DNA of 45,322 nt. Source: Desulfobacterales bacterium (lineage in GTDB: Bacteria > Desulfobacterota > Desulfobacteria > Desulfobacterales > JARGFK01). A model generated the notes under the pieces. It saw nothing but the letters and a program-made list of their open reading frames with translations, had not been told where the DNA came from and did no database searches. Shown here piece by piece: positions 21,473 to 37,086 of this stretch. A program made the position numbers and the translations under genes. The stretch is taken from positions 1 through 45,322 of the forward strand of contig JARGFK010000029.1 in assembly GCA_029211065.1 (NCBI GenBank), in the 5' to 3' direction. Each line of letters starts with the position of its first letter. Within the stretch, counting starts at the first letter, position 1.

Positions 21473-21823
21473 CTATCCGATCGTACTTTTAACGATGCCC
21501 AGCAGTTTGTCCGGATCAAAGGGCTTGGAAAGGTAAGCCACCGCGCTTTTGGCAGCGTGCTGGCCTGCCATACCGCTGATGATGATCACCGGGGTGTCCT
21601 TAAAGTCCTTTTCCTTGGTCAGCCTGCGGTAAAATCGACTTCCCCATTCTTCAGGCATTTGCAGGTCGAGGGTGATCAGGTCCGGCTTTTCTTTTTTCAG
21701 AACGTCAAGGGCCGCCACCCCGTCGGAAGCGGTGCAGGTTTCGTAGCCGTTGTCGGTAAAAAGCGTTACCAGGTATTTAACGATGATGGGGTCGTCATCA
21801 ACGACCAAAATTTTCTTTGCCAT
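21473..21823 (-). CDS. Single-domain response regulator after tmcA
   Basis: A stand-alone receiver domain of 116 residues. The acidic pair is VVDDDP (residues 7-12), the phosphoacceptor is Asp53 in LITLDLQMPEEWG, the Thr/Ser switch lies in IIISG and the conserved Lys in LSKPFD. No output domain follows, so it works by protein contact. It begins about 30 bases after tmcA on the same strand and is likely the last gene of the tmc operon. It is about two-thirds identical by eye to the receiver at 28991-29344 that ends the hmc group. Both carry the unusual PEEWGxRFYRxLTKE segment. Confidence 0.88.
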   Translation of the reverse strand: MAKKILVVDDDPIIVKYLVTLFTDNGYETCTASDGVAALDVLKKEKPDLITLDLQMPEEWGSRFYRRLTKEKDFKDTPVIIISGMAGQHAAKSAVAYLSKPFDPDKLLGIVKSTIG

Positions 21824-21853
21824 TATAACCCTCTCTTTTGGATGCGGTATGGA

Positions 21854-22240
21854 CTATTTTTGGTGACAATCACTGCAGAGGATCGGGCCCGCCTTTTTTT
21901 CGACATGACACCCTTTACACTGCAGGTGATACACCCTTACCAGCGGCATGGGGCTATTCCCCTTTTCCAGGGTATGACACTCCGAACAACTGGTGCCTTC
22001 GGATGTTTCGCCGTCGACCCGTTTGCCGTCCTGGTAGACATGATGGCAGACGCCGCAGTCTTCTATCTGAGCGGTTTCATTGTGTTTGTCGTGAGTAAAA
22101 GGAACAGGCGGCCGCATTCGTGATGTAAACGCACTGTCCTTAACAAATTTGACGTCTTCCTGGGAACTGGCTGAGAAAACAGCCATGATGGAAGCCATCA
22201 CTGTTAAGATTATCGATAGCGTCAGAGTCCGTTTTTTCAT
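21854..22240 (-). CDS. tmcA: Tetrahaem type II cytochrome c3, TmcA
   Basis: Periplasmic electron carrier subunit of the Tmc transmembrane complex. A signal peptide covers about residues 1-25. Four CxxCH haem-c motifs are seen: CGVCHH, CSECH, CKGCH and CSDCH, with additional His ligands such as FTHDKH. At 128 residues it matches class III cytochromes. A GTG further upstream opens the same frame, but GGGAG is spaced eight bases from the ATG at 22240, which is therefore chosen. The preceding genes tmcD, tmcC and tmcB support the assignment. In Desulfovibrio this cytochrome takes electrons from type I cytochrome c3 and periplasmic hydrogenases. Confidence 0.88.
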   Translation of the reverse strand: MKKRTLTLSIILTVMASIMAVFSASSQEDVKFVKDSAFTSRMRPPVPFTHDKHNETAQIEDCGVCHHVYQDGKRVDGETSEGTSCSECHTLEKGNSPMPLVRVYHLQCKGCHVEKKAGPILCSDCHQK

Positions 22241-22300
22241 TAGGTGCACTCCCTTGTTAAAATCCTTCTAAATAGTGGTCTCATGCTGCGTCAGGCAGGT

Positions 22301-23644
22301 CTATGCCGCCGGTTTTTCGATTGCTTCGTAAAGAATATCACCCAGAAACTTCAGCTCCATGTCCAGTCCATAATGGTGAATAATATCTTCCAATCCGCCA
22401 TGGCAGTTATGGCAGGGCGCGATAATGGTTTTAGCGCCCCGGGCTTTGGCTGCAAAAAGCTGCTCGGCCTTTATTCGATTACCTTCCACCCGGGTCATCT
22501 TAAAGGGAGGGCCGCAGTTGATGACGCCGCCGCCGGCGCTGCAGCAGTAATTGTGCTCCCGGTTCGGATGCATTTCGATAAACTCGCTGCAGGCCGCCCG
22601 GGTAACATAACGGCCCATTTCATGAAGTCCGCGACCCCGGACCGTGTTGCAGGGATCATGAAAGGTAACCGGTTTGTCGTATTTTTTGGCGATCTTCAGT
22701 TTACCCTCTTTCAGCATTTCATAATAAAACTGGATGGCATGCACGACCGGAATGGGCGTCGTTTTCCAGCCCAGGGCCCGGTTGCCCACATCGTAAATGG
22801 AGCGAAAGGCGTGTCCGCATTCACCCATCACGATTTTTTTGACCTTCAGCCGGAAAGCGGATTCGTAGTGGACCTTTTTCAGCCGGGTCATCATTTCATT
22901 GTCGCCGGTGAACATGCACATATCGCTGTTATCCCAACCCGGACGGGACGGCATTGTCCAATCCACGCCGGCTGCATTCATGATAACGGCCGCCTGGTAA
23001 ATCAGCTGGGCGCGAAACTTCGGTTCCGGGCCGATGACGGAATAGTAGATGTCCGCGCCTTCTTTATCCAGCGGGATCCGCAGGTTCGGTATTTCATCCT
23101 GGGCCTCTTCTTCCTGCCACTGGAGACTGTCAATCCACTCGTCATCCTTTACCCACATCTGATTCATGGTGGCGGCGTGGCTGTGGGCGGTATCCTGGAT
23201 GTACTGCGGGGTTACCCCCAGTTTGTGACAGATCCGGCGCATGACCAGCATTAAGTAGGCCACGTCGATTCCAAAGGGGCAGTACATGGCGCAGCGACGG
23301 CACAGGTTGCATTCGGTGGAGGCGATTTCAGAGGCGCGTTTAATAAAGTCCGGTGAAACCTTCCCCCTTTTTTTCAACACTTCCCAAATGGTCTGTTTAA
23401 CTTTGCCGGCCGGTGAAAACTTTGGATCATTGTCGTGGGAAAGATAAAAATGACAGGCTTCGGAACACAGGCCGCAATGGACGCAGGTGTCCACATAGGT
23501 CTTGAAGCGCGCACCGGTTTCACTGCTTAAGACCTTGTTAATGACCTGTTCAATTTTTTCAGGGGTCAGCTTGGCCGCACCCTGTTCGATGCCTTTGTCA
23601 AACACTTTGGTTTTGGCTTCAGTTTTAACTGCAGGTTCAACCAT
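22301..23644 (-). CDS. tmcB: HdrD-like Fe-S subunit of the Tmc complex, TmcB
   Basis: Cytoplasm-facing iron-sulfur protein of 447 residues, related to heterodisulfide reductase HdrD and DsrK. The N-terminal half has two [4Fe-4S] motifs, CVHCGLCSEACHFY and CNLCRRCAMYCPFG. The C-terminal half has one canonical CCG domain: DPCNTVRGRG, then NYCCSAGGGVINCG, then APCHNCHGG. CCG domains bind the non-cubane clusters at which disulfides are reduced. An additional conserved MGECGHAFRS segment lies between. GGAG precedes the ATG. It lies between tmcC and tmcA. It is paralogous to HmcF in this window. Confidence 0.9.
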   Translation of the reverse strand: MVEPAVKTEAKTKVFDKGIEQGAAKLTPEKIEQVINKVLSSETGARFKTYVDTCVHCGLCSEACHFYLSHDNDPKFSPAGKVKQTIWEVLKKRGKVSPDFIKRASEIASTECNLCRRCAMYCPFGIDVAYLMLVMRRICHKLGVTPQYIQDTAHSHAATMNQMWVKDDEWIDSLQWQEEEAQDEIPNLRIPLDKEGADIYYSVIGPEPKFRAQLIYQAAVIMNAAGVDWTMPSRPGWDNSDMCMFTGDNEMMTRLKKVHYESAFRLKVKKIVMGECGHAFRSIYDVGNRALGWKTTPIPVVHAIQFYYEMLKEGKLKIAKKYDKPVTFHDPCNTVRGRGLHEMGRYVTRAACSEFIEMHPNREHNYCCSAGGGVINCGPPFKMTRVEGNRIKAEQLFAAKARGAKTIIAPCHNCHGGLEDIIHHYGLDMELKFLGDILYEAIEKPAA

Positions 23645-23678
23645 AATCGTTACTCCTTATATAGAGAAAAAATCTTTC

Positions 23679-24338
23679 TTACCAGTCCTTGACATGTCTG
23701 ACGGCGCCGAATTCAGAACCCATGTAGCCGCGCGTAAACGGGAAGAACAGCATGTGGCTCAGGCGGGTAAAGGGAATGACCGCCAGCATGACTTCACCTG
23801 AAAGCATGTGGAGAACCGCCATCCATTGATGTCCGGCCCACTGATGATAAGTCCAGAAACCGGTTACAAACGGGGCCGCAATAATGGATAGGATCACAAA
23901 GTCGGAAGCGGACGTCAGAAACCGGACTTCCGGCTGCGTGATGCGCCGAACCGCGAAAAACACACACCCCGCAATCACAATCAGCGTCATAAAGTCGGCT
24001 GCGCCGTCAGAGAGAAACCACCAGCTGATGTTCCACGACTCTTTAAAAAGAATGATATGTGCAAACAAAAAAATCGGCACGAAGATGAAGCCGATATGAA
24101 ACAAAAAGGTGACGATCGTTAAAATCGGGTTTTTCCTGGAGTTGACGCTGGCAAACGGTATGATCCAGTGAAAGATCGACCGCAGGGCAAACTTAGGATT
24201 CATGTAAGCATAAACCATCGGGTCTTTTTTCTTTGCCAGCAACGCCATTGAGACCAAGCGGTAAATACTGCCGCCGATAAAAATGATAAAGGCAACCCAG
24301 ACCAGCGGGCCGCTGACAATATTGCAAATTGCATGCAT
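23679..24338 (-). CDS. tmcC: Membrane b-type cytochrome subunit TmcC
   Basis: A 219-residue integral membrane subunit of the DsrM/NarI-like group with about five or six helices. His residues likely to ligate haem b are seen in FLFHIGFIFVPIFLFAHIIL, in the HQWAGHQWMAVLHMLSGE segment and in FTRLSHMLF. The end GYMGSEFGAVRHVKDW closely parallels HmcE at 31888-32565, which ends with a similar GQLGMDYG block. It would pass electrons between TmcA, the quinone pool and TmcB. AAGGAG precedes the ATG, and the gap to tmcD is only 15 bases. Confidence 0.88.
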   Translation of the reverse strand: MHAICNIVSGPLVWVAFIIFIGGSIYRLVSMALLAKKKDPMVYAYMNPKFALRSIFHWIIPFASVNSRKNPILTIVTFLFHIGFIFVPIFLFAHIILFKESWNISWWFLSDGAADFMTLIVIAGCVFFAVRRITQPEVRFLTSASDFVILSIIAAPFVTGFWTYHQWAGHQWMAVLHMLSGEVMLAVIPFTRLSHMLFFPFTRGYMGSEFGAVRHVKDW

Positions 24339-24353
24339 GGATTCTTCTCCTTA

Positions 24354-25631
24354 TTAGCCGATAATATCCGTAAGCGCTAAAACCTGCCGGTAATATTTTC
24401 CTTGATTATCATCGCTGCCGATACCCCGCACCAGCAGTTTGCTTCCATCCGGACTGAAACAGGGGTTCCAAGCCTGGCTGAATTGCGATTTCAGGGCCCG
24501 CCCGTCAACCAAAATCTGGTAGCGGCCGTTTTTTTCAACTTTGGCAGCCACATGCTTATTGTCGGGGCTGAAAACCGGCTGCCAGACCATATCAAATCTT
24601 TCATTCCAGGCCTTGCCGTCAACCACTACCGCCCAGCGCTCACCTTCTTTACCTATGCAGGCCACGCGGCTGCCGTCCGGGCTGAAAACCGCATCAATAA
24701 CCAGATCGCCGAATGTCAGGTCCCAGGGGGTTTCATTGACGGCAACGGTCCAGCGCCCGAATTTGGGCGCCACAATGGCAGCGAGGTTCTTTCCGTCCGA
24801 ACTGTACATGTGCTGCCACAATTGAACAAAGCCCCGATTCCACAGGGGCTTTCCGTCCCGGGCCAGGGTCCATCCCCCCGGTGTTTTTACCGGAGCGGTT
24901 ACACTGCCGTCGGCCGGGCTGAACATGGGTTTCCAGACGGTGGCGTAGTTCTGATTCCAGCAGGCACCATCCACGGCAATGGTATAGTCATAAAGAGACG
25001 TGCGGACTTCTGCGGCAACATGCTTACCATCCTTGCTGAAGGCAAGATCCCAGACATTTACAAAGTTTTTGTCCCAGACTTTTCCGTCAACCGCTACCGA
25101 ATAACACCCTTCCTGAAATTTATAAATTTCAGCTTCATTGAAAGGAACCGTCTGGACCACGGCTGCCAGCCCCTTGCCGTCCGGACTGACCGTAAGATTG
25201 GTCATGGAAAGGAAGCTTTCTTGCCAGGGGGTGTCGTTGGCAGCCGCAAAATATTTTCTCGCTTTCTGGCAAGACACAGCAATGCCGCTGCCGTCGGGTC
25301 CGAATTGGGTGTCCCACACATATTCAAACCGGTTTTCCCATGGTTCTCCATCCACAGCGACGGTCCACTCTCCCGTATCGGATACCAAAGCAGTGAGGCG
25401 ATTGTCCGGTGTAAACTTTGCGTGCCAGATCTTGTCAAAGGTGTTTTCCCAGGGTGTGCCGTTTTCACAGAGGCTGAATTCAGCCGATTCATTCTTGATG
25501 ATGGCAGCTACCTTTTCGCCATCCGGGCTGACCTGCAGCTCTTCCATGTATTCATAATTTTTTTTCCACTCGCTGATATCGGCAATCACCCGTTTGCCGA
25601 CTTCCCAGTCCCAGCTGGCTGAATTTGTCAT
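24354..25631 (-). CDS. tmcD: TmcD, beta-propeller-like repeat protein
   Basis: A 425-residue protein made of roughly ten tandem repeats of about 40-46 residues. Each has a variable strand, then a W(D/N/E)xxF segment, then FSPDG, then AAxV, then WxVAVDG. Such SPDG/VAVDG repeats fold as WD40- or TolB-like propellers. No signal peptide or membrane helix is seen, so it is probably cytoplasmic. TmcD is the Tmc subunit without a cofactor and of unknown role in Desulfovibrio; the assignment rests on position and repeats. It is the first structural gene here and sits 71 bases after the HTH regulator. GGAGG precedes the ATG. Confidence 0.82.
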   Translation of the reverse strand: MTNSASWDWEVGKRVIADISEWKKNYEYMEELQVSPDGEKVAAIIKNESAEFSLCENGTPWENTFDKIWHAKFTPDNRLTALVSDTGEWTVAVDGEPWENRFEYVWDTQFGPDGSGIAVSCQKARKYFAAANDTPWQESFLSMTNLTVSPDGKGLAAVVQTVPFNEAEIYKFQEGCYSVAVDGKVWDKNFVNVWDLAFSKDGKHVAAEVRTSLYDYTIAVDGACWNQNYATVWKPMFSPADGSVTAPVKTPGGWTLARDGKPLWNRGFVQLWQHMYSSDGKNLAAIVAPKFGRWTVAVNETPWDLTFGDLVIDAVFSPDGSRVACIGKEGERWAVVVDGKAWNERFDMVWQPVFSPDNKHVAAKVEKNGRYQILVDGRALKSQFSQAWNPCFSPDGSKLLVRGIGSDDNQGKYYRQVLALTDIIG

Positions 25632-25702
25632 GCGCCCTCCTAAAAATTATCAGAATGCTTGATTTTAGCTTTTATTTTGTTTTTTAACACAGACAATAAA
25701 CT

Positions 25703-26434
25703 TTATATTTTAACCGGTTCCGCCAGTAAAAGCCAAGCGCCGCTAGGTTCTTTCAGCGGAAAAACGTCAATATGGGCTTCAATTTTATTCAGTTTAGAAT
25801 TTTTTAAAAAAATCTGATCGGTCCGTGGTGCCGAATGATCTCCCAAGGCCCTCTTTTTATTGTTGGAAATAACCTTTTCCAGCGAATCAGGATGACATAT
25901 TTTTTCAATACCCATCCCCACCAGATCTTCCTCCATCACCTCGCATAGTTCTGCCCATTTGTTATTGCCCCCCCAAAAATATAAATCTTTACAGACTGCA
26001 GCGGGAAAATCTATTTGGTGGATAAATTGTATTTTGGCAAAATAAGTTTCTTGATAAAATTCGCAGGCATTGCATACTCCGCCGCACGCCAGGGCACTGC
26101 TGGCTTTACCGATGAAACAGACATCCAGCCGATTGTTAAAAACCGTACAATTTTCGCAGTTGCAGTTTGTTTTTTCCCCCTGAAAATATTGCCAGCAATA
26201 TTGATGGGATCTAAAAAACGGTCCTTTTAGGTTCTTGCCCCCAAGCGCTTCAGGGATTTTCTGGCCGGTTGATTTCATAAAAAAGATCAATTCTTCAAAA
26301 CGGATTGCATATTTTTTCCCAACGCGCAAAGCAGAGAGTTTGCCGGATCGTATCCATAAACCGACCGTGTTGCGGTTCACGCCGCATATATTGGCGACCT
26401 GGGCCACCGAGAATGTTTTACTTGAAAAATCCAT
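25703..26434 (-). CDS. Cys-rich HTH/PAS regulator upstream of tmc
   Basis: A 243-residue protein of three parts. Residues 5-60 are an excisionase/MerR-like helix-turn-helix (SVAQVANICGVNRNTVGLWI, then a beta wing RVGKKYAIR). Residues 75-130 hold eight cysteines: C80, C91, C93, C96, C106, C117, C121 and C124, suggesting an Fe-S cluster or zinc site. Residues 140-243 look like a PAS domain (FPAAVCKDLYFWGGNNKWAE and a final HIDVFPLKEPSGAWLLL). It lies immediately upstream of tmcDCBA on the same strand and is preceded by a cluster of TTnGCAWAA sites. It is a good candidate redox switch for the tmc operon. This architecture was not recognised as a named family. Confidence 0.75.
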   Translation of the reverse strand: MDFSSKTFSVAQVANICGVNRNTVGLWIRSGKLSALRVGKKYAIRFEELIFFMKSTGQKIPEALGGKNLKGPFFRSHQYCWQYFQGEKTNCNCENCTVFNNRLDVCFIGKASSALACGGVCNACEFYQETYFAKIQFIHQIDFPAAVCKDLYFWGGNNKWAELCEVMEEDLVGMGIEKICHPDSLEKVISNNKKRALGDHSAPRTDQIFLKNSKLNKIEAHIDVFPLKEPSGAWLLLAEPVKI

Positions 26435-26770
26435 TTGGTTTAACCTTGATCAGTTATTTGCATAAACATATTATGCTTAGCAAAATAAATCATAGACAGT
26501 TTTTGCAAAAATAATATTGGCATAATTAGCAAATAGAATTTATAAGTCAAGCAGAATTATTTATTTAATTTCGATTTCCGGCACTGACGGAAAAATCAAG
26601 TGTAGTTCACAACTTATTGAAAAAATATTGTCTAAAGATCATTTTCGTGGTACCTGAAAATGCGATCGATTGAATCGATCCGGTGCCAATTTTCCACCCC
26701 TCCAAAAGGGCTGGAGTTTAAACTTGCTGGCTGATGCTTTGATTGACCAGAAAAAAAGGAGGTATGGTAA
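26435..26770. other. Divergent intergenic region with operator-like repeats
   Basis: About 335 AT-rich bases between the HTH regulator and a divergent small gene. The half nearest the regulator carries the TTnGCAWAA sites described separately. Further right is a perfect palindrome GATCGAT-TGA-ATCGATC at 26664-26680. No open frame with a ribosome-binding site was found in it. Confidence 0.5.
26457..26534. promoter_or_regulatory. Cluster of five TTnGCAWAA repeats, candidate operator
   Basis: Near-identical 9-mers occur at 26457 (TTTGCATAA), 26477 (TTAGCAAAA), 26502 (TTTGCAAAA), 26517 (TTGGCATAA) and 26526 (TTAGCAAAT), all in the same orientation. They fill the 20-100 bases before the HTH regulator start. 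Direct repeats of this kind suit the wing-HTH protein encoded just downstream, suggesting autoregulation and co-control of tmc. Binding is inferred. Confidence 0.5.
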
Positions 26771-27265
26771 GTGGTTAAATATAAATTATATGTACCGGTT
26801 GCGGTGGCTGTATTTTTGGGAATTATTTTGCAGGTAATATTGATCCTGGCTGATTGTACACCGACACCGGGCAGGGCAGCGGTTGAATTTGCCAAGGCAT
26901 TTTACCGGATCGACCCCGCGATGTCGTCTCTCCTTTGTAGTAAAAATTTGGAAATGGATGAGGGCAGTGTGGTAGAAAAATATATCCAGAGTGTGACCCA
27001 AGAGGCCAGGGATCGCGGGTTCGGCTTAAATAACATGAAATATATGCTTTACCACATTGAAACCCATACCCGTCGAATTGACGATACCACTGCTGAGGTT
27101 AAACTAACTGCCACAAGAAAGGTTTCCATAAACCCGATTTACGCACTGGTTGCAAAATTTTTTCTGATCGGGGAAACTTATAAAGTTGACGAGCTCATCC
27201 TCGTGGTAAAGGAAGACGGCCTGTGGAAAGTCTGTGATGGTCTTTTTCCCTCTTCTGAAATATAA
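26771..27265 (+). CDS. Membrane-anchored protein of unknown function
   Basis: A 164-residue protein with one N-terminal transmembrane helix (about 7-27, VAVAVFLGIILQVILILAD) and a soluble alpha/beta domain outside the membrane. That domain begins with PTPGRAAVEFAKAFYRIDPAMSSLL and ends with LILVVKEDGLWKVCDG. This pattern resembles NTF2-like or DUF4878-type small domains, but no family can be named with confidence. The GTG start has GGAGG nine bases upstream, which is why it is chosen. It is divergent from the tmc regulator and convergent with a histidine kinase gene. Confidence 0.7.
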   Translation: MVKYKLYVPVAVAVFLGIILQVILILADCTPTPGRAAVEFAKAFYRIDPAMSSLLCSKNLEMDEGSVVEKYIQSVTQEARDRGFGLNNMKYMLYHIETHTRRIDDTTAEVKLTATRKVSINPIYALVAKFFLIGETYKVDELILVVKEDGLWKVCDGLFPSSEI

Positions 27266-27382
27266 GGGGGTGATAGTTGTGAGAGAAGGAGGTCCGGCTG
27301 GTTGGGGATCAAATTTAGCTTTGAATCACTCGAATCTTTGCAACTTAAGCAGATGTTTATTCCTGCTTTTCAGTTGCGAACG

Positions 27383-28876
27383 TTATTCCTGGCTCTTCTT
27401 TTCTTTAACTGATTCGGGCAACTCCTTGAATAGTATTATCCTAAATTGTGACCCCTTTCCTGGTTCTGAAGCTACTTCAATTGAACCACCATGTTGCTCG
27501 ATAATCTGGTTGGCGACGAAAAGCCCCAGCCCGGTGCCTCTGTTCCCTTTTGAAGAAAAGAAAAGGGTGAACAGATTCTCCCGTGTCTGCCTGTCCATGC
27601 CAATGCCATTGTCTAGTGTTTCAAAAATAACATGATCTTCGTTCTCATTTACCCTGAAGATCACCTGGTGCGTTTTTTTATCAGACCTGTCATCTACGCA
27701 GGCATCTATAGCATTTTCAAGGATATTTACAATCGCTGAACTAACCGTGCCGGGGTCAATTTCTATCGGTGACTCAGTGCAATTTAAGTCATAAACAAAC
27801 TCGATGTTGTGTTTTTTAGCTTTCGGTTTGCTGATCGTAGCTATCTGATTTGAAAAGTCCTTGACATTGACCCGGGTCCAGTTCAAATCCCTGTCCTTAG
27901 TATAATAGAGGATATCAAGCACCATGGTCTTGATACGGTGGACCATGTTCTTGACAACTTCCAAGGCGTCATCAATTTTTTGTTTGTTTCCGTTTTTAAG
28001 GCCTTTTTCGAGACTATAAATGCCTCCGTCAAGGGCTGTTAATACGCCCCGTATTCCGTGAGACATGGATCCAACCAAAAGGCCAAGGGATGTTAAATGG
28101 CTTTGCAGCTTCCGGATTTGAGTGATGTTGGTCGACATTTCCATGACCTCGGTAATTTTGCCGGTTTCATCCCGCAAAGGGGCGGTCCAGGTCAACACAT
28201 TATATTGCTCTCCATGTTGCGAGGTAACCACCTCTTCTGTTTGGTGGGGGACCCCATCTTCAAAGGTGGCTTCCACCGGGCAATCACGGCAGGGCTCATC
28301 CCTGTGCTTGTAAATTTTATAGCAGAAGAATCCGACATGATCACCAAAATCATTTTTAAACCGCTTGTTAGCGCCCGTCAGCCTGAAATTGACATCTTGT
28401 ATAGAAATATAACACGGCACTTCATCGAAGAGTTGTTGAAATAATGCATTGTTTTTTCTGGCTATTTCGAGCTCCATTTTATATTTTACATTATTAAACC
28501 ATATTTTTCGCTTCTCATATGCCCTTTGAAGGGCGATCTTGAGGGCTTCGCTGTTAATCGGTTTAGTTAGATAATCCGATGCCCCTAACCGCAGGCATTC
28601 TAAAGCCGAGTCTAAATCACCTTCCGCAACCATCATTATCATTTGAATTGCGGGAAAGCTTTGTTTTGTTTCTAACAGAAGTTCAGTGCCTGTAATATCT
28701 GCTAAATCGATTCCGGATAAGACAATGGCGGGTAAATGTTTTGAGATTGCAGACAGGGCCGTTTGACCGGTTTCCGGTTGAATGACATCATAACCGTATC
28801 TGGCCAAATGTTTTCCCAAAGCATGGCACAGTTCTTTATCCTTGTCCAAAATCAATACGGAATTGTCTGTTGCCAT
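27383..28876 (-). CDS. REC-PAS-histidine kinase with degenerate receiver
   Basis: A 497-residue cytoplasmic protein. An N-terminal receiver-like domain (4-118) lacks the phosphoacceptor: the strand reads IVLSGIDLADITG, with Gly55 where Asp is expected, and only one Asp remains of the usual acidic pair in LILDKDKE. The Lys (Lys105) is kept. A PAS domain (about 145-255) includes CRDCPVEATFEDG with Cys196 and Cys199. The kinase core has His273 in SMSHGIRGVLTALDGGIY, the N box NILENAIDAC, the G1 box DNGIGMD and the G2 box GNRGTGLGL. It follows a paralogous response regulator and closes the hmc-usp-RR group. Confidence 0.88.
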   Translation of the reverse strand: MATDNSVLILDKDKELCHALGKHLARYGYDVIQPETGQTALSAISKHLPAIVLSGIDLADITGTELLLETKQSFPAIQMIMMVAEGDLDSALECLRLGASDYLTKPINSEALKIALQRAYEKRKIWFNNVKYKMELEIARKNNALFQQLFDEVPCYISIQDVNFRLTGANKRFKNDFGDHVGFFCYKIYKHRDEPCRDCPVEATFEDGVPHQTEEVVTSQHGEQYNVLTWTAPLRDETGKITEVMEMSTNITQIRKLQSHLTSLGLLVGSMSHGIRGVLTALDGGIYSLEKGLKNGNKQKIDDALEVVKNMVHRIKTMVLDILYYTKDRDLNWTRVNVKDFSNQIATISKPKAKKHNIEFVYDLNCTESPIEIDPGTVSSAIVNILENAIDACVDDRSDKKTHQVIFRVNENEDHVIFETLDNGIGMDRQTRENLFTLFFSSKGNRGTGLGLFVANQIIEQHGGSIEVASEPGKGSQFRIILFKELPESVKEKKSQE

Positions 28877-28990
28877 TTGTATTAAACTTTATAATGTAAT
28901 TTATTGGTAACATTCACATAATAATCTTCAATACCGCTTAAACATTATTTAACCAATGAAGGAAGCCCAGATTAAAGATCATATACATCT

Positions 28991-29344
28991 TCAGCCGATG
29001 GCCTCTTTTACAATTTTCAGCAACTGGTCGCGGTCGAACGGTTTGTGGATGCTGGCTATCGCCTTTTGGATGGCATATTTGCTACCGGTCAAACCGCTGA
29101 TCACTATTACGGGAATATTCTTAAATTCTTCCTCTTTGGTAAGCTTGCGGTAAAATCTGGGCCCCCACTCCTCCGGCATTTCCAGATCAAGCGTTATCAG
29201 ATCCGGTTTTTCTTTTTTAACAACTGTCATTGCTTCAGAACCATCTGCGGCTACACACGTTTCATAGCCGTTGTCGGTAAAAATATCTTCGAGGTAGGTA
29301 ACGATATTGGGATCATCATCGACAATTAAAATTTTTTTTGCCAT
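28991..29344 (-). CDS. Single-domain response regulator downstream of hmc-usp
   Basis: A 117-residue stand-alone receiver domain, with IVDDDP acidic residues, phosphoacceptor Asp53 in LITLDLEMPEEWG, VISG switch and HKPFD Lys. About two-thirds of its residues match the receiver after tmcA (21473-21823), including GYETC, KKEKPDLITLDL and RFYRxLTKE. It lies between the universal stress protein and the degenerate-receiver histidine kinase, all on the minus strand. Its own receiver is intact, so it could be the partner of that kinase. Confidence 0.88.
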   Translation of the reverse strand: MAKKILIVDDDPNIVTYLEDIFTDNGYETCVAADGSEAMTVVKKEKPDLITLDLEMPEEWGPRFYRKLTKEEEFKNIPVIVISGLTGSKYAIQKAIASIHKPFDRDQLLKIVKEAIG

Positions 29345-29393: not shown

Positions 29394-30317
29394 CTATAAG
29401 TCTATAACTTTATCAGGACGGTTCACACTTGCTACCGGACAAGTCGCCCGCAAGACAACCTGCTCTAATGTGCTTCCGAGCAGGGCCTTTTCAGGGCTCG
29501 GCTCCCTGGTGTGGTGGGCCATGACAATAAGATCGGCAGATCTTTCACGGGTATACTTAACGATCTCCACGTAGGGTATTCCTTCCCATACATCGATCTC
29601 ATAATCATCAAACCCTTTCATCCTGGGCACATACATTTTTCTTATTTTTTCTCGCGCTATCCGCAAATTGTCTTCAATTTCATACTGTTCTAATAACTTA
29701 CCGGCATGCACGCCGCTAATGTCACAGGCGTGGAACAGATGCAACTTACATCCAAGCGTTTTAGCCACCTTATATGCAAACATAAAAGCCGAATCCGCAG
29801 CCCTTGAAAAATCGGTTCCAAATACAATATCGGAAAAACCGCCCCAGAATGACGCCGCCGGCCGGCCAATGACAAGAACGGGACAGCGGGCGGCCTTGGT
29901 TACAGTTTGCAGGGTGCTGCCCGCAATGTTTCGGTAGGTATAGGTGCCTTCATTTTCTTCCCTGGTGGTGGAGCCCATGACGATAAGATCCGCGTCTTCC
30001 TTGCGCGCGGCTCTTAAGATTTCGGTGTGTGGAATTCCGGTCAGCGCTTCTATTGTACAGTTTTCATGCATTTTAAGCTGTTTGGCATAGGTGTTTTTGA
30101 TCTCCTCCTTTACCCATTCGAGATAATCATCATTATATGATACGGTTTCGCCGGTTCTCACATCTTTTACAAACTGGCTGAATCCCCTTGAGGGGATCCC
30201 CAGAACATGAAAAACTGTGAGTTCAGAACCGTATCGCTTGGCCATGTCAAAAGCCACTCGGGCGGCATGGTCACAGGAAGGGGAAGCAGTTGTTGCAAAC
30301 AGAATTTTTTTAAACAT
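29394..30317 (-). CDS. Tandem universal stress protein (UspA family)
   Basis: A 307-residue cytoplasmic protein made of two Usp domains (about 1-150 and 160-300). The first ends with VMGSTTREENEGTY...AGSTLQTV, the second with MAHHTREPSPEKALLGSTLEQVV. Both match the ATP-binding G-2X-G-9X-G(S/T) pattern only partly: the first has GSTT and AGST, the second has replaced the first Gly by Ala. Each domain begins with FATTxSxxxDHAARVAFDMA-type or FGTDFSRAADSAFMFAYKVA strands. It follows hmcF on the same strand, as usp genes often do near redox complexes. Confidence 0.88.
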   Translation of the reverse strand: MFKKILFATTASPSCDHAARVAFDMAKRYGSELTVFHVLGIPSRGFSQFVKDVRTGETVSYNDDYLEWVKEEIKNTYAKQLKMHENCTIEALTGIPHTEILRAARKEDADLIVMGSTTREENEGTYTYRNIAGSTLQTVTKAARCPVLVIGRPAASFWGGFSDIVFGTDFSRAADSAFMFAYKVAKTLGCKLHLFHACDISGVHAGKLLEQYEIEDNLRIAREKIRKMYVPRMKGFDDYEIDVWEGIPYVEIVKYTRERSADLIVMAHHTREPSPEKALLGSTLEQVVLRATCPVASVNRPDKVIDL

Positions 30318-30463
30318 ACGTCACCTGTAAATGAATAGTGATATGTAGTCCATCGATATGTAAATTCGATCACGAATTTACTCACTCAGGACTAAGTGCT
30401 GAGTGAAAAATTACATTGAATTGATCATGCAAAATACGTTATAGTAATTTCGAATCGAAGCAC

Positions 30464-31852
30464 TTAGCCTTCATCCCTTGGTTTAAGATGTTCGGGCACC
30501 TCCACCATTTTAATGAGAATGGGTTTTAAAAAGGACCACTTAATTCCCATATGATAGATCTCTTCCATATCCCGGATGGCATCCCAGCAGTTGTGACAAG
30601 GAGCAATAACCAACTTCGCCCCGGTTGCAAGAATCTGGTCCCTTTTAACTTTCATGCCGATGTTCCGCGCTTCACGGTATCGACCGATTCCATTAAGCCC
30701 GCCCCCGCCGCCGCAACAGAAGTTATGCTCCCGGTTGGGCGTCATTTCCCTAAAGTCTTCTGCAATATAGCTCATGATTTCCCTGGGAATATCGGCAAGT
30801 CCGGCATTGCGTATATAGTTACATGAATCCTGGTAGGTAACAGGCTCTTTTATTTTCTTAGAGGGATCGATTTTCAATTTGCCGGTTCGCAACGCTTCCG
30901 CGACCCATTCCACATAATGAAAGCTTTCAACCGGGGGTTGTCCTGATTTAAGCCCCGCCCAATAAGGGCCTTCAATGACAGTGGCCCGGTAGGCGTGGCC
31001 GCATTCCGTTACGACCATCCGTTTCGGTTTTAACCTGTCCATGGCTGCGTACACATTCTCGACCTGCATTTTACATGCCGCCCAGTCGCCCGCGAACATG
31101 GCGAGACTGGTCTCTTCCCAGCCCTCGCTGGGAACGGTCCAGTTTTCCCCGGCCAGATGGAACAGAACAGCCGCTTCAGCAATATCCTGGGGGTAATGCT
31201 TCGGCTCCCGGGCATTTACCGTATACAGGATATCCGCATTCTCTTTGTCGACGGGTATCTTCAGGCCGGGGTATTCTTCTTCCCATTCTTCCGCCATCCA
31301 TTCGCAAGTATCAAGCCAGTCTTCTGTGGTAACATCCATCTGGGCTTTATAGATCCGGTGCATCCCCGTTCCGATCTTCATTTCCCATGGAGTAAATCCC
31401 TGGGAAAAGAGAAGGCCGCGAAGATAACCAAACATGACCCCCATGTCGATGCCGAATGGGCAATAGACTCCGCAGCGGGTGCAGCAGGAGCACTTCGAGA
31501 ATGCCGTGTCCATGCACACCTGCATGAAAGTATTGTCCACTTTGCCTTTGCGCTTTACCAATTCGCCCAGGGTCGACTGAATCTTGTATGACGGCACCTG
31601 CCTGGGATCTCTGTTGTTGGCAGTATAATAAAAACAGCTTTCCGCACACATACCGCAGTGGGCGCATATCTCCAGCCACGTTTTTAATCGCGACTTAAGC
31701 GACTTTTGAATCGTTACCCACAATGCATCGCTATCGACATCAAGCTGTTTCATCTCTTTATAATACTGGGCGCCGCCGGCATCAGCCAAAAGCGCATCGA
31801 GCTGTTCCTTGGTGTCCACCATTTTCTTATTGCAGAGTATTCCTTCCGGCAT
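30464..31852 (-). CDS. hmcF: HdrD-like Fe-S subunit of the Hmc complex, HmcF
   Basis: Cytoplasmic iron-sulfur subunit of 462 residues. Two [4Fe-4S] motifs lie in the N-terminal half ([14 protein letters not shown] and [14 protein letters not shown]). The C-terminal CCG domain reads [31 protein letters not shown], with [10 protein letters not shown] before it. This matches HdrD/DsrK/TmcB proteins. In Desulfovibrio HmcF is the cytoplasmic end of the Hmc conduit. It ends the hmcABCDEF operon, and the predicted start has GGGG about ten bases ahead. It is paralogous to TmcB at 22301. Confidence 0.9.
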
Positions 31853-31887
31853 AATGATTCATTCCCCAAGTTTTTATTGTTAAAAAA

Positions 31888-32565
31888 TTACCAGGCAAAC
31901 CCTTTGCCCTTCATCCCGCCCCGTTTGATGCCGTAGTCCATTCCCAGCTGACCTCTTGACATAAAGAATAAAACAAAATGAGACAATTTTGTGAAGGGGA
32001 TGGCAATCAACATGATTTCACCGCAGATGATGTGCAAAATCGTCCAGAGCTTATAATCGGACGCCATATGATGCGCAATGAATCCGGTAACAAAGGGTGC
32101 AACCGCTATAATGATGACTGCAAAATCATAAACAGTCGTAAGAATCCTGACTTCGGGCAGCGCGATTCTTCTTAGGATAATAAAAATTGAGGCAACAATC
32201 AAGGCAATTGTCAGTAGATCAGCTGCCGATTCCGGGATTGTCCAGAAGCTGAACCCCCATCTTTCCTTGAGAATAATGTTATGCGCTGTTAGAAAGATTG
32301 GCGTAATCAGCAAACCGGTGTGGAAAACAAGGAAAAGAGCCGTGAAGAATGGATTTTTTCTCCAGCTGCGGGTGCCGAATGGAAGCAGCCAGAAGACAAC
32401 GGATCTCACCGCCCCCTTCATCCCGTATGAAAAGTGAGCGGTGTAGGCAACTCTGTCGGCCTGCCAGTTGAGACCTTTAACATAACGTATGATGCGAACG
32501 ATGCAGCCGATAATGAAAATTGCAAATGACAGCCATAGCAGGGGGCCGGTTACGAACTGATACAT
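31888..32565 (-). CDS. hmcE: Membrane b-type cytochrome subunit HmcE
   Basis: A 225-residue membrane protein of the NarI/DsrM group with about five or six helices. Haem-ligand His candidates are in LVFHTGLLITPIFLTAHNII, GFIAHHMASDYKLWTILHIICGE and FTKLSHFVLF. It is paralogous to TmcC at 23679, with matching loops SWRKNPFF and a similar final block. Position between hmcD and hmcF fixes its identity as HmcE. Its ATG lies 12 bases after the hmcD stop. Confidence 0.9.
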   Translation of the reverse strand: MYQFVTGPLLWLSFAIFIIGCIVRIIRYVKGLNWQADRVAYTAHFSYGMKGAVRSVVFWLLPFGTRSWRKNPFFTALFLVFHTGLLITPIFLTAHNIILKERWGFSFWTIPESAADLLTIALIVASIFIILRRIALPEVRILTTVYDFAVIIIAVAPFVTGFIAHHMASDYKLWTILHIICGEIMLIAIPFTKLSHFVLFFMSRGQLGMDYGIKRGGMKGKGFAW

Positions 32566-32577
32566 TTCAGTCTCCTT

Positions 32578-32712
32578 TTACTCGTCTTGATCCCTTTCAA
32601 CCAGAAAGTTCCAGAACCCTAACATTCCCAAAAGGATAACCACAATCAATACATAGGTGACACCTTCCGTGTGTGTCATGAACTCCTGAAGTGTATAAAA
32701 AGATCCGTCCAT
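32578..32712 (-). CDS. hmcD: Small single-helix Hmc subunit HmcD
   Basis: A 44-residue protein found by reading the gap between hmcC and hmcE. It starts MDGSFYTLQEFMTHTEGVTY, has one transmembrane helix (VLIVVILLGMLGFWNFLV, about residues 21-38) and ends in the acidic tail ERDQDE. GGAGC before the ATG is a usable ribosome-binding site. HmcD of Desulfovibrio is likewise a very short membrane protein between the C and E subunits. Its size means it is easily missed by automatic annotation. Confidence 0.85.
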   Translation of the reverse strand: MDGSFYTLQEFMTHTEGVTYVLIVVILLGMLGFWNFLVERDQDE

Positions 32713-32741
32713 TGCTGATAGCTCCTAGTAAAAAATATCAA

Positions 32742-33914
32742 TCAATGCTCATCTTCATAATCAGGGTGCTTATAAAAGATTGGCATTTGGGTTACGATAA
32801 ACTTAAAGGCAATCAGGCCCAGTGTGACGATAAAAATTGAAATGCCGATTTCCATCCAGTGCGGAAAATATCTCTCGTCGCTTGGCAGATGATAATTAAA
32901 CGCCACCAGACATATATTGAACCGGTTGACGATAATACCCAGAACGGTCCAGGCTGAAGTCCACTTGATCAATGTCAGGTTCTTGTCCCGTACGCCGACG
33001 GCATAAAGGAAACAGGGGAGGGTGACAAAACCAAGAAGCTCCACAAGAAACCAGAGTCCATATGGGGTCGCAAGCAGCTGCCAGTGATTGCCCGTCGAGA
33101 TTCCGATTACTTTGATCGCGAAATAGCCTGCTAAAATCCATGCGGCCGCCTTTCCGAATCCAAAAGGAATCAGGCTTTCTGCTTTAAGGTGATCTTCATC
33201 CATTTTAGCGGAGAAAAATTTATGCGAAAGCGTACTTTCAAAAATGACCATGGACAATCCGGCAATCATGCTTGTTACGAAAAAGTAAATGGGCAGATAA
33301 GACGAGTACCAGAGGGGGTGCAGTTTTGACGGCGCAATCAGAAAAAGGGCGCCAAGTGATGATTGGTGCAGGGTGGAAAGGATGACGCCAAATATGGTAA
33401 GCACCAGGGTAAGTTTGTGGATCAGGTTTCTCAGCTTGCTCAATCCCAGCCATTCAAGTGCGGCAGGCGAGAACTCCAGAAAAAGAACGGTAAGATAAAG
33501 CGCGACGCAGGCAGCCACTTCAAAAAGGAGGGATGTGGTGCCCTGCTGAATGATAAAGGGATAAGGCAGCCGCCAGGGTCTGCCCACATCATAATGGAGC
33601 GCAAGGACGACCAGCGCGTATCCTAAAAAGCCGGTAAGGATGGCGGGCCTTACTGCGGAATGGTATTTTTTCATTCCGAACAGATAGACTGCCGCCGACG
33701 TAACATAGCCGCCGGCTGCAAGGGCAACGCCAACGAGCAGATCAAAACCTATCCATATCCCCCAGGGATTATAATCCGACAAGTTGGTTACCGCAGCCAA
33801 ACCTCCGGCAAACCGAATGCCCGTCAAAATTAAGCCAATGATGACGATAATGCCAGCAATCGCATTAAAGGGGGTAAAATACGATTTTGCGGCAGTTGTG
33901 GTTTCGTCTGACAT
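32742..33914 (-). CDS. hmcC: NrfD-like integral membrane subunit HmcC
   Basis: A 390-residue polytopic membrane protein with about ten helices, of the NrfD/PsrC quinone-interacting family. Characteristic segments are YNPWGIWIGFDLLVGVALAAGGY, YDVGRPWRLPYP and STLHQSSLGALFLIAPSKLHPLW. In complexes of this type NrfD subunits oxidise or reduce menaquinol and pass electrons to the Fe-S subunit. Its ATG overlaps the hmcB stop (TGATG), so the two are translationally coupled. Confidence 0.93.
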   Translation of the reverse strand: MSDETTTAAKSYFTPFNAIAGIIVIIGLILTGIRFAGGLAAVTNLSDYNPWGIWIGFDLLVGVALAAGGYVTSAAVYLFGMKKYHSAVRPAILTGFLGYALVVLALHYDVGRPWRLPYPFIIQQGTTSLLFEVAACVALYLTVLFLEFSPAALEWLGLSKLRNLIHKLTLVLTIFGVILSTLHQSSLGALFLIAPSKLHPLWYSSYLPIYFFVTSMIAGLSMVIFESTLSHKFFSAKMDEDHLKAESLIPFGFGKAAAWILAGYFAIKVIGISTGNHWQLLATPYGLWFLVELLGFVTLPCFLYAVGVRDKNLTLIKWTSAWTVLGIIVNRFNICLVAFNYHLPSDERYFPHWMEIGISIFIVTLGLIAFKFIVTQMPIFYKHPDYEDEH

Positions 33915-34969
33915 CAGGACCCCTCCTCTTTTTGTACCTTTTGAACTTCAGCAAGCGCCTTTTTCACTTCTTTTTGTATGGCGACCTCTTTTTCTTTTTG
34001 GGCTTTTGTCAAGGCTTCGGAAAGTTTTAACTGCGCCGCCGCATCGGCCTTTTGCAGGGCATGGAAAACGGCCTGTTCTTTTTCTTTTTGGGCGATTTGC
34101 TCCTTGCGCTTGGTCATGGCATAAACTCCGGTCAGGAGTACCGGCCAAAGGCCGACGACAATTGGAACAGCGCCTAGAACGCCGGCGGTCAGTTCAGGAG
34201 CAGGAACGGTTCCGAGATCTTCGCGCATTCCTATTTCTTTGTACGGGGCGCCTGAAAGATAAAGCCAGTTCGTCCCGCCCATCTCGTGTTCCCCATAAAT
34301 ATGATCCACATAACGGTCCGGAAACTTTTTGATGCGTTCCCGGGCGATATTGATTAAATCTTTGCGTTTGCCGAATGTGAGGGACTCTGTTGGACAGGCT
34401 TCCACACAACCGGGAAGCTTGCCCTCAATGACCCGGGGATGGCACATGGTACACTTTCTGATCCGGGGGGTAAGGGGTTCATCGTATTCATAAGCTGGTA
34501 TTTCAAAGGGACAGGCAATCATGCAATAGCGGCAGCCGACGCACACGGAAGCATCATAAACAACCGCTCCTTCTTTCGTTTTGGTAAACGCCCTTACAAA
34601 ACATGCTGATGCACAGGCAGGCTCCAGGCAGTGATTGCACTGTATCTTGCGAAATATGGGGCTTTTTTTACTATGGGTATTTTCATAACGGTTAACTACC
34701 GTATAGGCCTTACTGCTTGTTCTCCTTTTTTTGGCAAGAACTGAAAGATCATCAAAGGGCTGGCTCGGCGGTGGCAATTCATTGACTTTGTTGCAGCCTG
34801 CTTCACAGTTTCGACACCCGATGCACAATACGTTGTCAAAGAGAACGCCAACGCTATCAGGATAGCCTTTAAATTGCTTGTTTGCAGCAGCATGGGCCGA
34901 CTTTCCAAAAGTGGCGCCCAGCCCTGCCGCACTCATCCAGCCAATAAATTTTCTGCGTGATATGGACAT
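33914..34969 (-). CDS. hmcB: Periplasmic ferredoxin-like Fe-S subunit HmcB
   Basis: A 351-residue protein with a Tat signal (SRRKFIGW, residues 4-11). Four [4Fe-4S] motifs follow: [35 protein letters not shown] and CTMCHPRV...GCVEAC. A C-terminal transmembrane helix (about 262-283) is followed by a 67-residue Lys/Glu/Ala-rich tail from about 285 with heptad character, probably a coiled coil on the cytoplasmic side. It links the 16-haem HmcA to the membrane subunit HmcC. The tail is noted as an unusual feature. Confidence 0.92.
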
Positions 34970-35004
34970 ACAAGACTCCTCACAGAGATTCTAACAGGCT
35001 ATTT

Positions 35005-36609
35005 TCAGACCCTTTTTAGCTTATGACAATCGGTACACCCGGTCGACGTTGGTTTTACAAGTTTCAGCACCTGGTGGCATCCCATGCACTGCTGGTGAAA
35101 AGCTCCCATGAGTCCGGGTCTGAAAGCGTTGCTTTCATCAAACGGTTTGCCGTGGCAGCTTCCGCAGTTAGGCGGCTTCTTGGCAACCGGGCTGTTATGG
35201 TGACAGCCCTGGCAGATCGTTCCCTGATCGCTATGATAATAGCCTGCCAGCTTACTATCCTTGATGTTATTTAAGAGCGTATGGATAATCTTGCGATGGG
35301 GAAGTTCAACCGCCTCGTATTTTTCAGAAAGCGCTTTGATAACAACTTTTTCCGGAATATCTTCAGCATTATATGTTAAGACTTTGGTCTTTCTTGAATT
35401 GAGCAGCATCTCTGCAATCTGGCGTTCATCCTGCGCGATATTTTTTGAAACACCGCTTAACGGATTCATATGACACAACTGGCAGGTGGTTGACTCCGGC
35501 CGGCGGTCTTTTGCTAAAAACGCATGGCAGGCCGCACATTCCGGTTTGCGCTGATTTGTTTCATGGCAACCGAGACAGCTTTGTTCTTTAGCCTTCAGAT
35601 GCATGGCACTTTCAAGCTTAATAAATTTCCCCTCTTTTGCGCCCTCCGAGGTATGGCATTGGACACAGGATTGCAAACTTTCGTGATGACACACAATACA
35701 CGTGTTGTTATAAGTTTCATGGGCTTTGTGGTTGAAAGGTGCGGGATTCATTCTGAAAGACGGGCCTTCCTTGTTTGGGCCTGGAGTTTTTACCCGGATT
35801 AGGACAAAATCAGGCTGTTTTCGCTCCATTCTGGGGACGACTTCAATCTTTTCAATTTTCTTTTGCATTTCATGGTCGTGACAGCCCATGCATTTAACAG
35901 GACCTGATTCTATTTTTACGGCCACTTTTTTTCGGTGGCAATCGATGCAGGCATCATGGGATGCCAGTTTCATGGATGAACGATTCTCTTCGGTTGTTTT
36001 TTTGTGGCAATAGCGACAGGACCCCTCCTTTTCTTTGGCGTAAAACAGCTTCTTTGTCTTTTCATTATATTCGTGGTGACACAGTGCACAGTCGCCTTTA
36101 TTGGTCCTTTGGTCTTTATTCGCTTCGGCATGACGGTAATGGAGCGAGTGATCAAAGGAGATGGGCTGCCTAGAAGATATTAACAGGTTTTTTTTAGGAT
36201 GACATTCGCCGCAAGTTTCAATCGGCCCTGCTTTTTTGCCCGTCGCAGATGTTTCTTTATGGCACCCGATACAATTGGTATGATAAATATCCATTACTGC
36301 TTGTTTGTCAGTATCTTTCAGCCGCTTAAATTTAGGAACCAGTCGATTGTTTTCCATCTGGTGGCATGCCTGGCAGTCTTTATTCTGCTTTTCAATGGCG
36401 TCAGTATGTTTATCATGAAGAAATACAACTTCCGGCCTTTCAAGGCGTCCAAACACCCTCATGGAATCAATTGGAATGATATCGGCCCGTATTTCTTCAG
36501 AACCTTCAAGCAGTTTCTGAACTCCCTGGGCTCCGAGACCGGTAATAGAGAATAGAGCAACGGCGACCAAGATTCCAACCTGTCGTAGCAGCGGTCTTGC
36601 AGTTTTCAT
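35005..36609 (-). CDS. hmcA: Sixteen-haem high-molecular-weight cytochrome c, HmcA
   Basis: A 534-residue periplasmic multihaem cytochrome with a signal peptide of about 27 residues. Sixteen CxxCH motifs were counted, from CQACH near residue 80 through CIGCH, CGECH, CALCH, CRYCH, CIDCH, CMGCH, CIVCH, CVQCH, CLGCH, CAACH, CQLCH, CQGCH, CGSCH, CMGCH and CTDCH at the C-terminus. This is the exact haem count of Desulfovibrio HmcA. It receives electrons from hydrogenase or formate dehydrogenase via cytochrome c3. It is the first structural gene, 45 bases after an Rrf2 regulator, with hmcB 35 bases downstream. Confidence 0.94.
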   Translation of the reverse strand: MKTARPLLRQVGILVAVALFSITGLGAQGVQKLLEGSEEIRADIIPIDSMRVFGRLERPEVVFLHDKHTDAIEKQNKDCQACHQMENNRLVPKFKRLKDTDKQAVMDIYHTNCIGCHKETSATGKKAGPIETCGECHPKKNLLISSRQPISFDHSLHYRHAEANKDQRTNKGDCALCHHEYNEKTKKLFYAKEKEGSCRYCHKKTTEENRSSMKLASHDACIDCHRKKVAVKIESGPVKCMGCHDHEMQKKIEKIEVVPRMERKQPDFVLIRVKTPGPNKEGPSFRMNPAPFNHKAHETYNNTCIVCHHESLQSCVQCHTSEGAKEGKFIKLESAMHLKAKEQSCLGCHETNQRKPECAACHAFLAKDRRPESTTCQLCHMNPLSGVSKNIAQDERQIAEMLLNSRKTKVLTYNAEDIPEKVVIKALSEKYEAVELPHRKIIHTLLNNIKDSKLAGYYHSDQGTICQGCHHNSPVAKKPPNCGSCHGKPFDESNAFRPGLMGAFHQQCMGCHQVLKLVKPTSTGCTDCHKLKRV

Positions 36610-36654
36610 ATTTTATCCCTATTAATCGTCAAATATTCTCATGAAGCAAATATG

Positions 36655-37086
36655 TTATGAGCTATTATTGGCATCATTGTCGAGCAGGTCTTGTATGGTG
36701 GTCGTATCATAGATATTAAAAATTGCAGCATTGACTTTGTGCCACATGGAAGCAAAGGCGCAGTTGCCGACCAAGGGGCACTTTGATATCGACACACAGG
36801 AAATACAATCGGAAGGCGTCAAATGGCGCGTCATAAATCTGAATATGTCTCCAACAGTAATTTCTTTCGGAGACCCGACCAAATAATACCCGCCATAAAA
36901 CCCGCGCTTAGACCTTACAAGCCCACTCCCTTTCAACTGGCCAAGGATAACCTCTAAAAATCGTAACGGAATTGCCTGTGCCCGGCTAATTTCTAAAATT
37001 TTTTTTGGGCCTTTGCCAATGCATTTGGATAGCTCATAAATTGCCCGCAAGGCATATTGATTCCTTTTTTGCGTCCAGTAATACAT
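36655..37086 (-). CDS. Rrf2-family regulator leading the hmc operon
   Basis: A 143-residue winged-helix repressor of the Rrf2/IscR family. The conserved start is QYALRAIYELSK, with the recognition helix in LRFLEVILGQLKGSGLVRS and the wing in KRGFYGGYYLV. Four cysteines, C94, C97, C103 and C109 (DCISCVSISKCPLVGNC), form a probable Fe-S ligand set. The frame opens at a TTG at 37140, but the ATG at 37086 gives the family N-terminus and is chosen. It lies 45 bases ahead of hmcA, whereas in Desulfovibrio vulgaris the rrf genes follow hmcF. Control of hmc by cluster status is inferred. Confidence 0.9.
   Translation of the reverse strand: MYYWTQKRNQYALRAIYELSKCIGKGPKKILEISRAQAIPLRFLEVILGQLKGSGLVRSKRGFYGGYYLVGSPKEITVGDIFRFMTRHLTPSDCISCVSISKCPLVGNCAFASMWHKVNAAIFNIYDTTTIQDLLDNDANNSS

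Follow-up and report, generated by a model that had tools for sequence, protein, structure and literature searches.

Do two electron conduits that lie side by side on a chromosome also answer to one switch? We addressed this question for a stretch of DNA of 45,322 nucleotides from a Desulfobacterales bacterium, termed the window hereafter (contig JARGFK010000029.1, positions 1 to 45,322, one of the 269 contigs of the 4.94-Mb assembly GCA_029211065.1), which encodes both the Hmc and the Tmc transmembrane complex. For these complexes, which way electrons flow and which partner serves in the cytoplasm are described as open questions in sulfate reduction (PMC4215793). The first-pass annotation of the locus had proposed one regulatory module choosing between the two conduits according to redox state. 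What we consider probable instead is that two complete transmembrane conduits, with separate control genes for each, have been brought side by side, their transcription being separate while a signalling layer may couple them. Most striking, however, is a finding from beyond the window: in other genomes, Hmc and Tmc subunits are redistributed between loci.

Gene content of the window and recurrence of the linkage

Read on the minus strand from position 37144 down to 21473, the locus starts with a tandem palindrome and the gene for an Rrf2-family regulator (Rrf2a), continues with hmcABCDEF, a tandem universal-stress protein (Usp2), a single-domain response regulator termed RRh and a receiver-PAS-histidine kinase, and, after a gap of 948 bp holding an opposed open reading frame (ORF), resumes with a helix-turn-helix (HTH) regulator termed HTHcys, tmcDCBA and RRt, again a single-domain response regulator. 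All ten Hmc and Tmc subunits exceed the curated NCBIfam equivalog cut-offs. The hmc set comprises the 16-heme cytochrome c HmcA with 16 CXXCH motifs (35005–36609; NF045713, 654 bits versus a cut-off of 400), the iron-sulfur protein HmcB (33914–34969; NF045715, 546 versus 420 bits), the NrfD-type integral membrane protein HmcC (32742–33914; NF045714, 681 versus 550 bits), the 44-residue membrane peptide HmcD (32578–32712; NF045712, 71 versus 34 bits), the NarI-like membrane subunit HmcE (31888–32565; NF045716, 358 versus 275 bits; no Pfam match at 0.001) and the cytoplasmic CCG/4Fe-4S protein HmcF (30464–31852; NF045711, 925 versus 750 bits). The tmc set consists of the beta-propeller-like TmcD (24354–25631; NF045725, 621 versus 440 bits), the membrane anchor TmcC (23679–24338; NF045723, 342 versus 240 bits), the CCG/4Fe-4S protein TmcB (22301–23644; NF045724, 850 versus 735 bits) and the tetraheme cytochrome c3 TmcA with 4 CXXCH motifs (21854–22249; NF045722, 162.8 versus 114 bits). 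With all ten genes on the minus strand and 4.03 kb between hmcF and the HTH gene, the initial description of a full hmcABCDEF set and a full tmc set separated by some 4 kb on the same strand is confirmed, as is that of a cysteine-rich DNA-binding protein ahead of each set (an Rrf2 protein before hmcA and an HTH_17 protein before tmcD).

Within the order, the linkage of hmc and tmc recurs. Among 291 genomes, TmcD exceeded its cut-off in 181 and HmcC in 144; matches were listed for 148 and 143 genomes, respectively, and for both proteins in 95. In 19 of these 95 genomes the listed matches lie within 13 kb of each other on one contig (22 within 30 kb), with 18 of the 19 close pairs on the same strand and 11 family groups represented. 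Uniform random placement in 4.6 Mb would yield about 0.5 such pairs, corresponding to an approximately 35-fold excess; the linkage is not due to chance. Eight genomes among the matches listed carry both genes on one contig at a distance of at least 30 kb, and many genomes are fragmented, so that a pair not shown to be linked is not necessarily unlinked. The 40 relatives searched all belong to families other than the window's own, and the unlinked loci used for comparison were hand-picked, mostly on long contigs. The order hmc, signalling genes, tmc is found in seven other loci (L046–L051 and L182, of which L048 and L182 are near-copies). The tmc genes come first in L052–L055 and L121, re-ordered hmc subunits adjoin tmc in L061 and L062, and the other linked loci are opposed. 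In another collection, 14 of 80 named tmc loci hold a gene with a best match to an Hmc subunit, which for two of them (L142 and L176) is an HmcB match of 29–31% alone.

This linkage has formed more than once. The TmcB proteins of the eight loci in window order do not form one clade (approximately unbiased test, p = 6.8e-13), which rules out a single origin of the arrangement. The window TmcB pairs with that of L062 (support of 93 in the Shimodaira–Hasegawa-like approximate likelihood-ratio test, SH-aLRT), and the window HmcF clusters with five unlinked loci (support 91/84); the trees drew on subsets of the fetched loci, and both the TmcB placement with L062 and the response regulator tree below come from quick trees. 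Furthermore, three tmc loci (L158, L169 and L185) have a NrdG/NrdD flank like that of the window, with one extra gene in between, and no hmc genes were found in the 10 kb upstream of L158 and L185 or the 4.6 kb upstream of L169; L158 also carries HTHcys and the opposed ORF. Since TmcB and HmcF group apart and NrdG/NrdD-flanked tmc loci stand without hmc, the window looks like a tmc locus, ordinary in other respects, beside which an hmc block came to lie.

The different affinities of the window TmcB and HmcF and the scattered TmcBs of the window-order loci would also fit a linkage without regulatory meaning, arising by gene transfer or by the joining of two loci each kept as an operon, and in 76 of the 95 genomes listed with both genes these do not lie within 13 kb, though many of these genomes are fragmented. 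On the other hand, such an explanation has to face the excess of close pairs over chance, their common strand and their spread over 11 family groups; repeated joining suggests selection. We regard it as rather unlikely.

Control genes of the hmc and tmc blocks

The gene of Rrf2a (36655–37086, minus strand; PF02082, 91 bits) starts with an ATG at 37086, and 9 bp upstream of it lie two tandem copies of a 24-bp palindrome, approximately TTTCTTGACTAWWWWRGTCRAGAAA (37096–37119 and 37121–37144, minus strand), which we propose as the Rrf2 operator. A palindrome-constrained expectation-maximization search recovered a dyad of 24 bp that occurs in 14 of 14 rrf2a–hmcA upstream regions, window included, at a score of 122.4 compared with 37.7–44.3 in five mononucleotide shuffles. 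Four widths were tried and the best one kept; the search was started 40 times on the data and 15 times on every shuffle. The window copies score 22.3 and 24.2 bits against a matrix built with the window's own site included, and the maximum among 50 block-shuffled windows was 18.8 bits. Both copies are the sole matches to their pattern with 0–2 mismatches in the 4.94-Mb genome; at up to three mismatches, the rrf2–hmc promoter is joined by one place elsewhere with three mismatches, and the control gave one match. Near tmcD, no Rrf2-type palindrome of at least 12 bits was found in the window or the seven loci of the same gene order, and no common operator was found at both the hmc and tmc promoters, the Rrf2-type palindrome being the sole type sought. 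Because the dyad is located at rrf2–hmc promoters and none of at least 12 bits lies near tmcD, the Rrf2 regulator most likely controls its own gene and hmc, not tmc. The protein combines an Rrf2 domain with at least three conserved cysteines, C112 and C115 being present in 14 of 15 and C121 and C127 in all 15 sequences, window included. Scans of the window for promoter-like sites (39 versus 25.4 expected) and terminator-like sites (20 versus 20.4 expected) were not used.

The tmc block is headed by HTHcys (25703–26434, minus strand), an HTH_17 regulator (PF12728) with a cysteine-rich centre and a weakly supported PAS-like carboxy-terminus, whose six cysteines are kept in 7/7 sequences including that of the window. 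Of its earlier label as an HTH-PAS protein, the HTH part is borne out by PF12728; for the PAS part, the window protein gave no Pfam PAS match and one homolog reached E = 0.0028, below the cut-off. An AlphaFold model from six sequences had a predicted local distance difference test score of 53.3, with the HTH part alone usable, and no fold search was made because of this poor model; the best match among PDB sequences had E = 0.055. An operator for HTHcys was sought by eye in eight upstream regions, and nothing is claimed from this. HTHcys was present in L050, in one of 20 unlinked tmc loci and in five of the 80 named ones, of which many are short; with so few tmc loci carrying one, it is not a general tmc partner. 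The opposed ORF in the gap before it, Lip164 (26771–27265, plus strand), encodes 164 residues with a hydrophobic stretch at the amino terminus as judged by eye. It has no Pfam match at 0.1; a homolog adjoins tmc in 5 of the 20 unlinked loci and in 13 of the 80 named ones.

The signalling genes comprise Usp2 (29394–30317; PF00582 in two stretches), RRh (28991–29344; NF045717, 207 bits versus a cut-off of 160), the receiver-PAS-histidine kinase recognized by Pfam (27383–28876) and RRt (21473–21823; NF045717, 187 bits), all on the minus strand. Both response regulators belong to the DVU0259 family and are 67.5% identical to each other, in line with the first-pass annotation, which had seen single-domain response regulators of one type after the two sets; RRh comes after the universal-stress gene, which separates it from hmcF. 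Their phospho-acceptor residues D10, D11 and D53 are kept in 52/52 and 11/11 sequences, and the four PAS cysteines of the kinase (C155, C185, C196 and C199) together with H273 in 30/30, window included in each case. Across the loci surveyed, genes for Usp, receiver and hybrid kinase accompany hmc and sometimes tmc; of 20 unlinked hmc loci, 12 have a Usp2 homolog. Many hmc loci and some tmc loci also contain, directly ahead of Usp2, a conserved gene of roughly 178 codons (e.g., L089:12536–13072), which gave no Pfam or NCBIfam match and was not seen in the window. The window also encodes a second PAS kinase (42483–44342), in which the same four cysteines are kept in 16/16 sequences.

At a threshold of 1e-28, response regulators of the DVU0259 family were found in 160 of the 291 genomes of the order, with one to three copies each; these copy numbers are lower bounds, as 15 candidates were scored per genome. 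Of the 150 matches listed, 101 have a listed TmcD or HmcC no more than 10 kb away, and in 97 of these cases the strand is shared. Around the remaining 49 we sampled 20 stretches (22 copies), ten with Hmc or Tmc genes and ten without, the regulator adjoining kinase genes in seven of the latter. A tree of 68 rows and 118 columns splits hmc-type from tmc-type regulators (SH-aLRT 92) into a group of 14 (10 hmc-linked, 3 from the complement loci described below and 1 tmc-linked) and a group of 54 (48 tmc-linked, 3 hmc-linked and 3 from complement loci). The window supplies one member to each, RRh clustering with the hmc-linked and RRt with the tmc-linked regulators; a recent duplication producing the two is not supported by this tree. 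By best match, the inter-conduit receiver of all seven other window-order loci belongs to a different type; two such receivers scored 82 and 69 bits versus the family cut-off of 160.

In the reading we favour, block 1 comprises Rrf2a–hmcABCDEF–Usp2–RRh–kinase and block 2 HTHcys–tmcDCBA–RRt. Rrf2a would, via a cysteine-bound cluster, repress its own gene and hmc and release them upon a redox or iron-sulfur change, and HTHcys might act likewise on tmc. The hybrid kinase may sense redox through its four PAS cysteines and phosphorylate RRh and RRt, which, as they have no output domain, would act by protein contact, either in a phosphorelay or by binding a kinase or the complex. Judging from work on relatives, Tmc would carry H2-derived electrons inward and Hmc perhaps outward or in syntrophy; in D. 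alaskensis, the fitness effects of Hmc and Tmc on H2 were opposite (PMC4215793).

A shared redox switch, in which the regulators and the response regulator pair choose between Hmc and Tmc, appears improbable to us. It draws on the recurrent linkage, on the Usp, receiver and hybrid kinase genes placed between the conduits in the window and the seven other loci, on the invariant sensor cysteines and on L046, where the genes from hmcA through tmcA share a strand, are spaced by no more than 94 bp and could form one transcript. The switch is least improbable in relatives of this kind, and to this extent the proposed single module is partly supported. However, the palindrome is found at the hmc promoter alone and tmc has a separate upstream regulator, itself rare among tmc loci; the two window response regulators fall into separate lineages, and the seven other loci have a between-conduit receiver of a different type; an opposed ORF and 948 bp lie between the blocks; and the Hmc and Tmc protein patterns differ in D. 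multivorans (PMC5109826). The tight spacing in L046 weighs against our preferred reading of two separately controlled blocks, and so do several other points. The palindrome is assigned as the Rrf2a operator by adjacency, and the support of the response regulator tree is moderate, given 118 columns and the exclusion of rows below 53% identity. The DVU0259-type family is not exclusive to the conduits, since half of the 20 sampled stretches have no Hmc or Tmc gene. Finally, the direction of Hmc is disputed, because an hmc deletion impaired growth of D. vulgaris on H2 (PMC10924467).

Mixed Hmc and Tmc gene sets outside the window

HmcC is directly followed by TmcD in five genomes of the order (G136, G013, G235, G033 and G191) and in two named loci (L151 and L170). 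HmcA, HmcB and HmcC are all present in five of these seven chimeric loci, the remaining two (L058 of G235, and L170) ending at a contig edge by HmcC. Six of the seven encode an HmcD-like peptide between HmcC and TmcD; the peptide of L151 is unlike it by eye. The G033 locus L059 has HmcA (603 bits), HmcB (532), HmcC (653), TmcD (599), TmcC (330) and TmcB (817) all over the cut-offs; HmcC (671) and TmcB (823) of L056 and HmcC (642) of L060 exceed theirs too. G136, G033 and G191 carry HmcABCD–TmcDCB in a first locus (L056, L059 and L060, respectively) and, in a second, complement locus (L186, L187 and L188), a response regulator, HmcE, HmcF, Usp2, RRh and a tetraheme TmcA-like protein. In these second loci HmcE (321–333 bits) and HmcF (904–910 bits) exceed the cut-offs, and the TmcA-like proteins score 82–94 bits, below the cut-off of 114. 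The second-locus HmcF is the sole HmcF over the cut-off in each of these three genomes, and none was found in the other four chimeric genomes searched, of which G235 is 66% complete. G013 retains a TmcA over the cut-off beside a second TmcB and TmcD. A comparison of HmcF with PDB sequences gave one match (9ojn_A at 6e-5), which was not used.

The seven chimeric TmcBs form one clade (100/100) nested in canonical TmcB, and the three complement HmcFs likewise form one clade (97/100 and 100/100 in two trees). As a separate observation, a short HmcA-like protein containing 7 CXXCH motifs stands ahead of TmcDCB in G069 (L080:6016–10185), and the TmcB of this locus groups with the chimeric TmcBs in a quick tree.

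Outside the order, 12 loci from 11 genomes and three family groups (L245–L256) carry TmcD–TmcC–TmcB-like–HmcA–HmcB–HmcC, with 16 or 17 CXXCH motifs in HmcA; in L246–L248 the TmcB-like part spans two ORFs. TmcD, TmcC and HmcA of L245 are over the cut-offs, with TmcB, HmcB, HmcC and the response regulator under them; L252 exceeds them for TmcB and HmcA, and its HmcC scores far below. The composite TmcBs tested, nine TmcB-like proteins from L245 and L249–L256 with L246–L248 left out, fall outside canonical TmcB and the chimeras (100/99) in an unrooted tree with long branches between L249–L251 and HmcF. The nesting of the seven chimeric TmcBs in canonical TmcB argues, for that subunit, against the chimeras being a retained composite of other lineages. 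By parsimony on TmcB alone, Hmc-type and Tmc-type genes would have been combined at least twice.

We infer that each mixed gene set may form one protein complex. Together with the composite clusters, the chimeras suggest that a 16-heme HmcA and an NrfD-type HmcC can use TmcBCD as the cytoplasmic end, and mixed complexes may also occur in cells with both sets, such as the window's. Tentatively, Hmc and Tmc could be regarded as interchangeable modules, with linked clusters like that of the window as exchange sites; we see this as a possibility short of probable. A linked cluster would then be composed of the segments hmcABCD, hmcEF–Usp–RR, tmcDCB and tmcA, of which alternate segments would yield the split loci of G136, G033 and G191.

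That the linkage itself matters as the source of mixed complexes, the two complexes sharing or exchanging subunits, we consider doubtful. HmcABC(D)–TmcDCB is complete in five loci and cut at a contig edge in two, an HmcEF–Usp2–RRh–TmcA-like locus exists in three of those genomes, TmcDCB–HmcABC clusters occur outside the order, and the chimeric TmcBs are nested in canonical TmcB. Against these stand that the window is not chimeric and that the other four chimeric genomes are without an HmcF over the cut-off, one of them being 66% complete. If natural HmcABCD–TmcDCB complexes do form, they would reveal which subunits make up the interchangeable cytoplasmic end, and comparing such natural swaps would allow the question of the cytoplasmic partner of Hmc and Tmc to be tested. 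The conduit-tracking response regulator family, the proposed Rrf2 operator and the kinase with its four invariant PAS cysteines offer testable handles on conduit choice.

Apart from the conduits, positions 39742–41692 of the window encode a DUF1641 protein and a type III sulfide:quinone reductase matching a 'selenoprotein subtype' model (665 bits, cut-off 525) without an in-frame stop. On other contigs of the source genome (L001, L002 and L003), three of six FlpD/MvhD-type matches contain one in-frame TGA, which suggests selenocysteine.

Comparison with known systems

The DVU0259-family model (NF045717) matches both window response regulators over its cut-off. DVU0259 itself presumably lies beside the tmc genes of D. 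vulgaris, which we take to be located elsewhere in that genome than hmc; we further take the D. vulgaris rrf1 product to be a receiver protein. Regulators beside hmc are already known, as rrf1 and rrf2 of D. vulgaris Hildenborough lie next to hmcA–F and have been named regulators of hmc expression (PMC10924467). According to a title in the reference list of the same paper, the two regulator genes are downstream of hmc, whereas Rrf2 lies upstream in the window.

The Hmc complex of Thermodesulfovibrio consists of a CCG ferredoxin, a 16-heme cytochrome, a periplasmic ferredoxin and an NrfD protein encoded in one gene run (PMC5165239), which resembles the composite loci L245–L256. The complex is named Hmc there, and the paper makes no mention of Tmc. 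We found no literature naming both HmcC and TmcD, an earlier mention being possible in a 2011 comparative survey of sulfate-reducer energy metabolism, and the hmc–tmc linkage is unreported in the available portions of PMC2702500, PMC4046663, PMC4287179, PMC5701242 and PMC11887813.

The linkage is nonetheless already in print for one genome, since in D. multivorans DSM 2059 hmc was reported downstream of tmcA1, together with response regulators, a universal stress protein and histidine kinases (PMC5109826). Hmc subunits were reported there in phenylacetate- and phenylpyruvate-adapted cells, and the majority of Tmc constituents under each of the 17 conditions, within the detection limits of the proteome (PMC5109826); such different protein patterns from a linked locus favour separate control. 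Both this locus (L053) and the window link hmc, tmc, response regulator, universal stress and kinase genes. They differ in that tmc precedes hmc in D. multivorans and hmc precedes tmc in the window, and in that no HTHcys or Rrf2 is assigned in the former, whereas the window has both.

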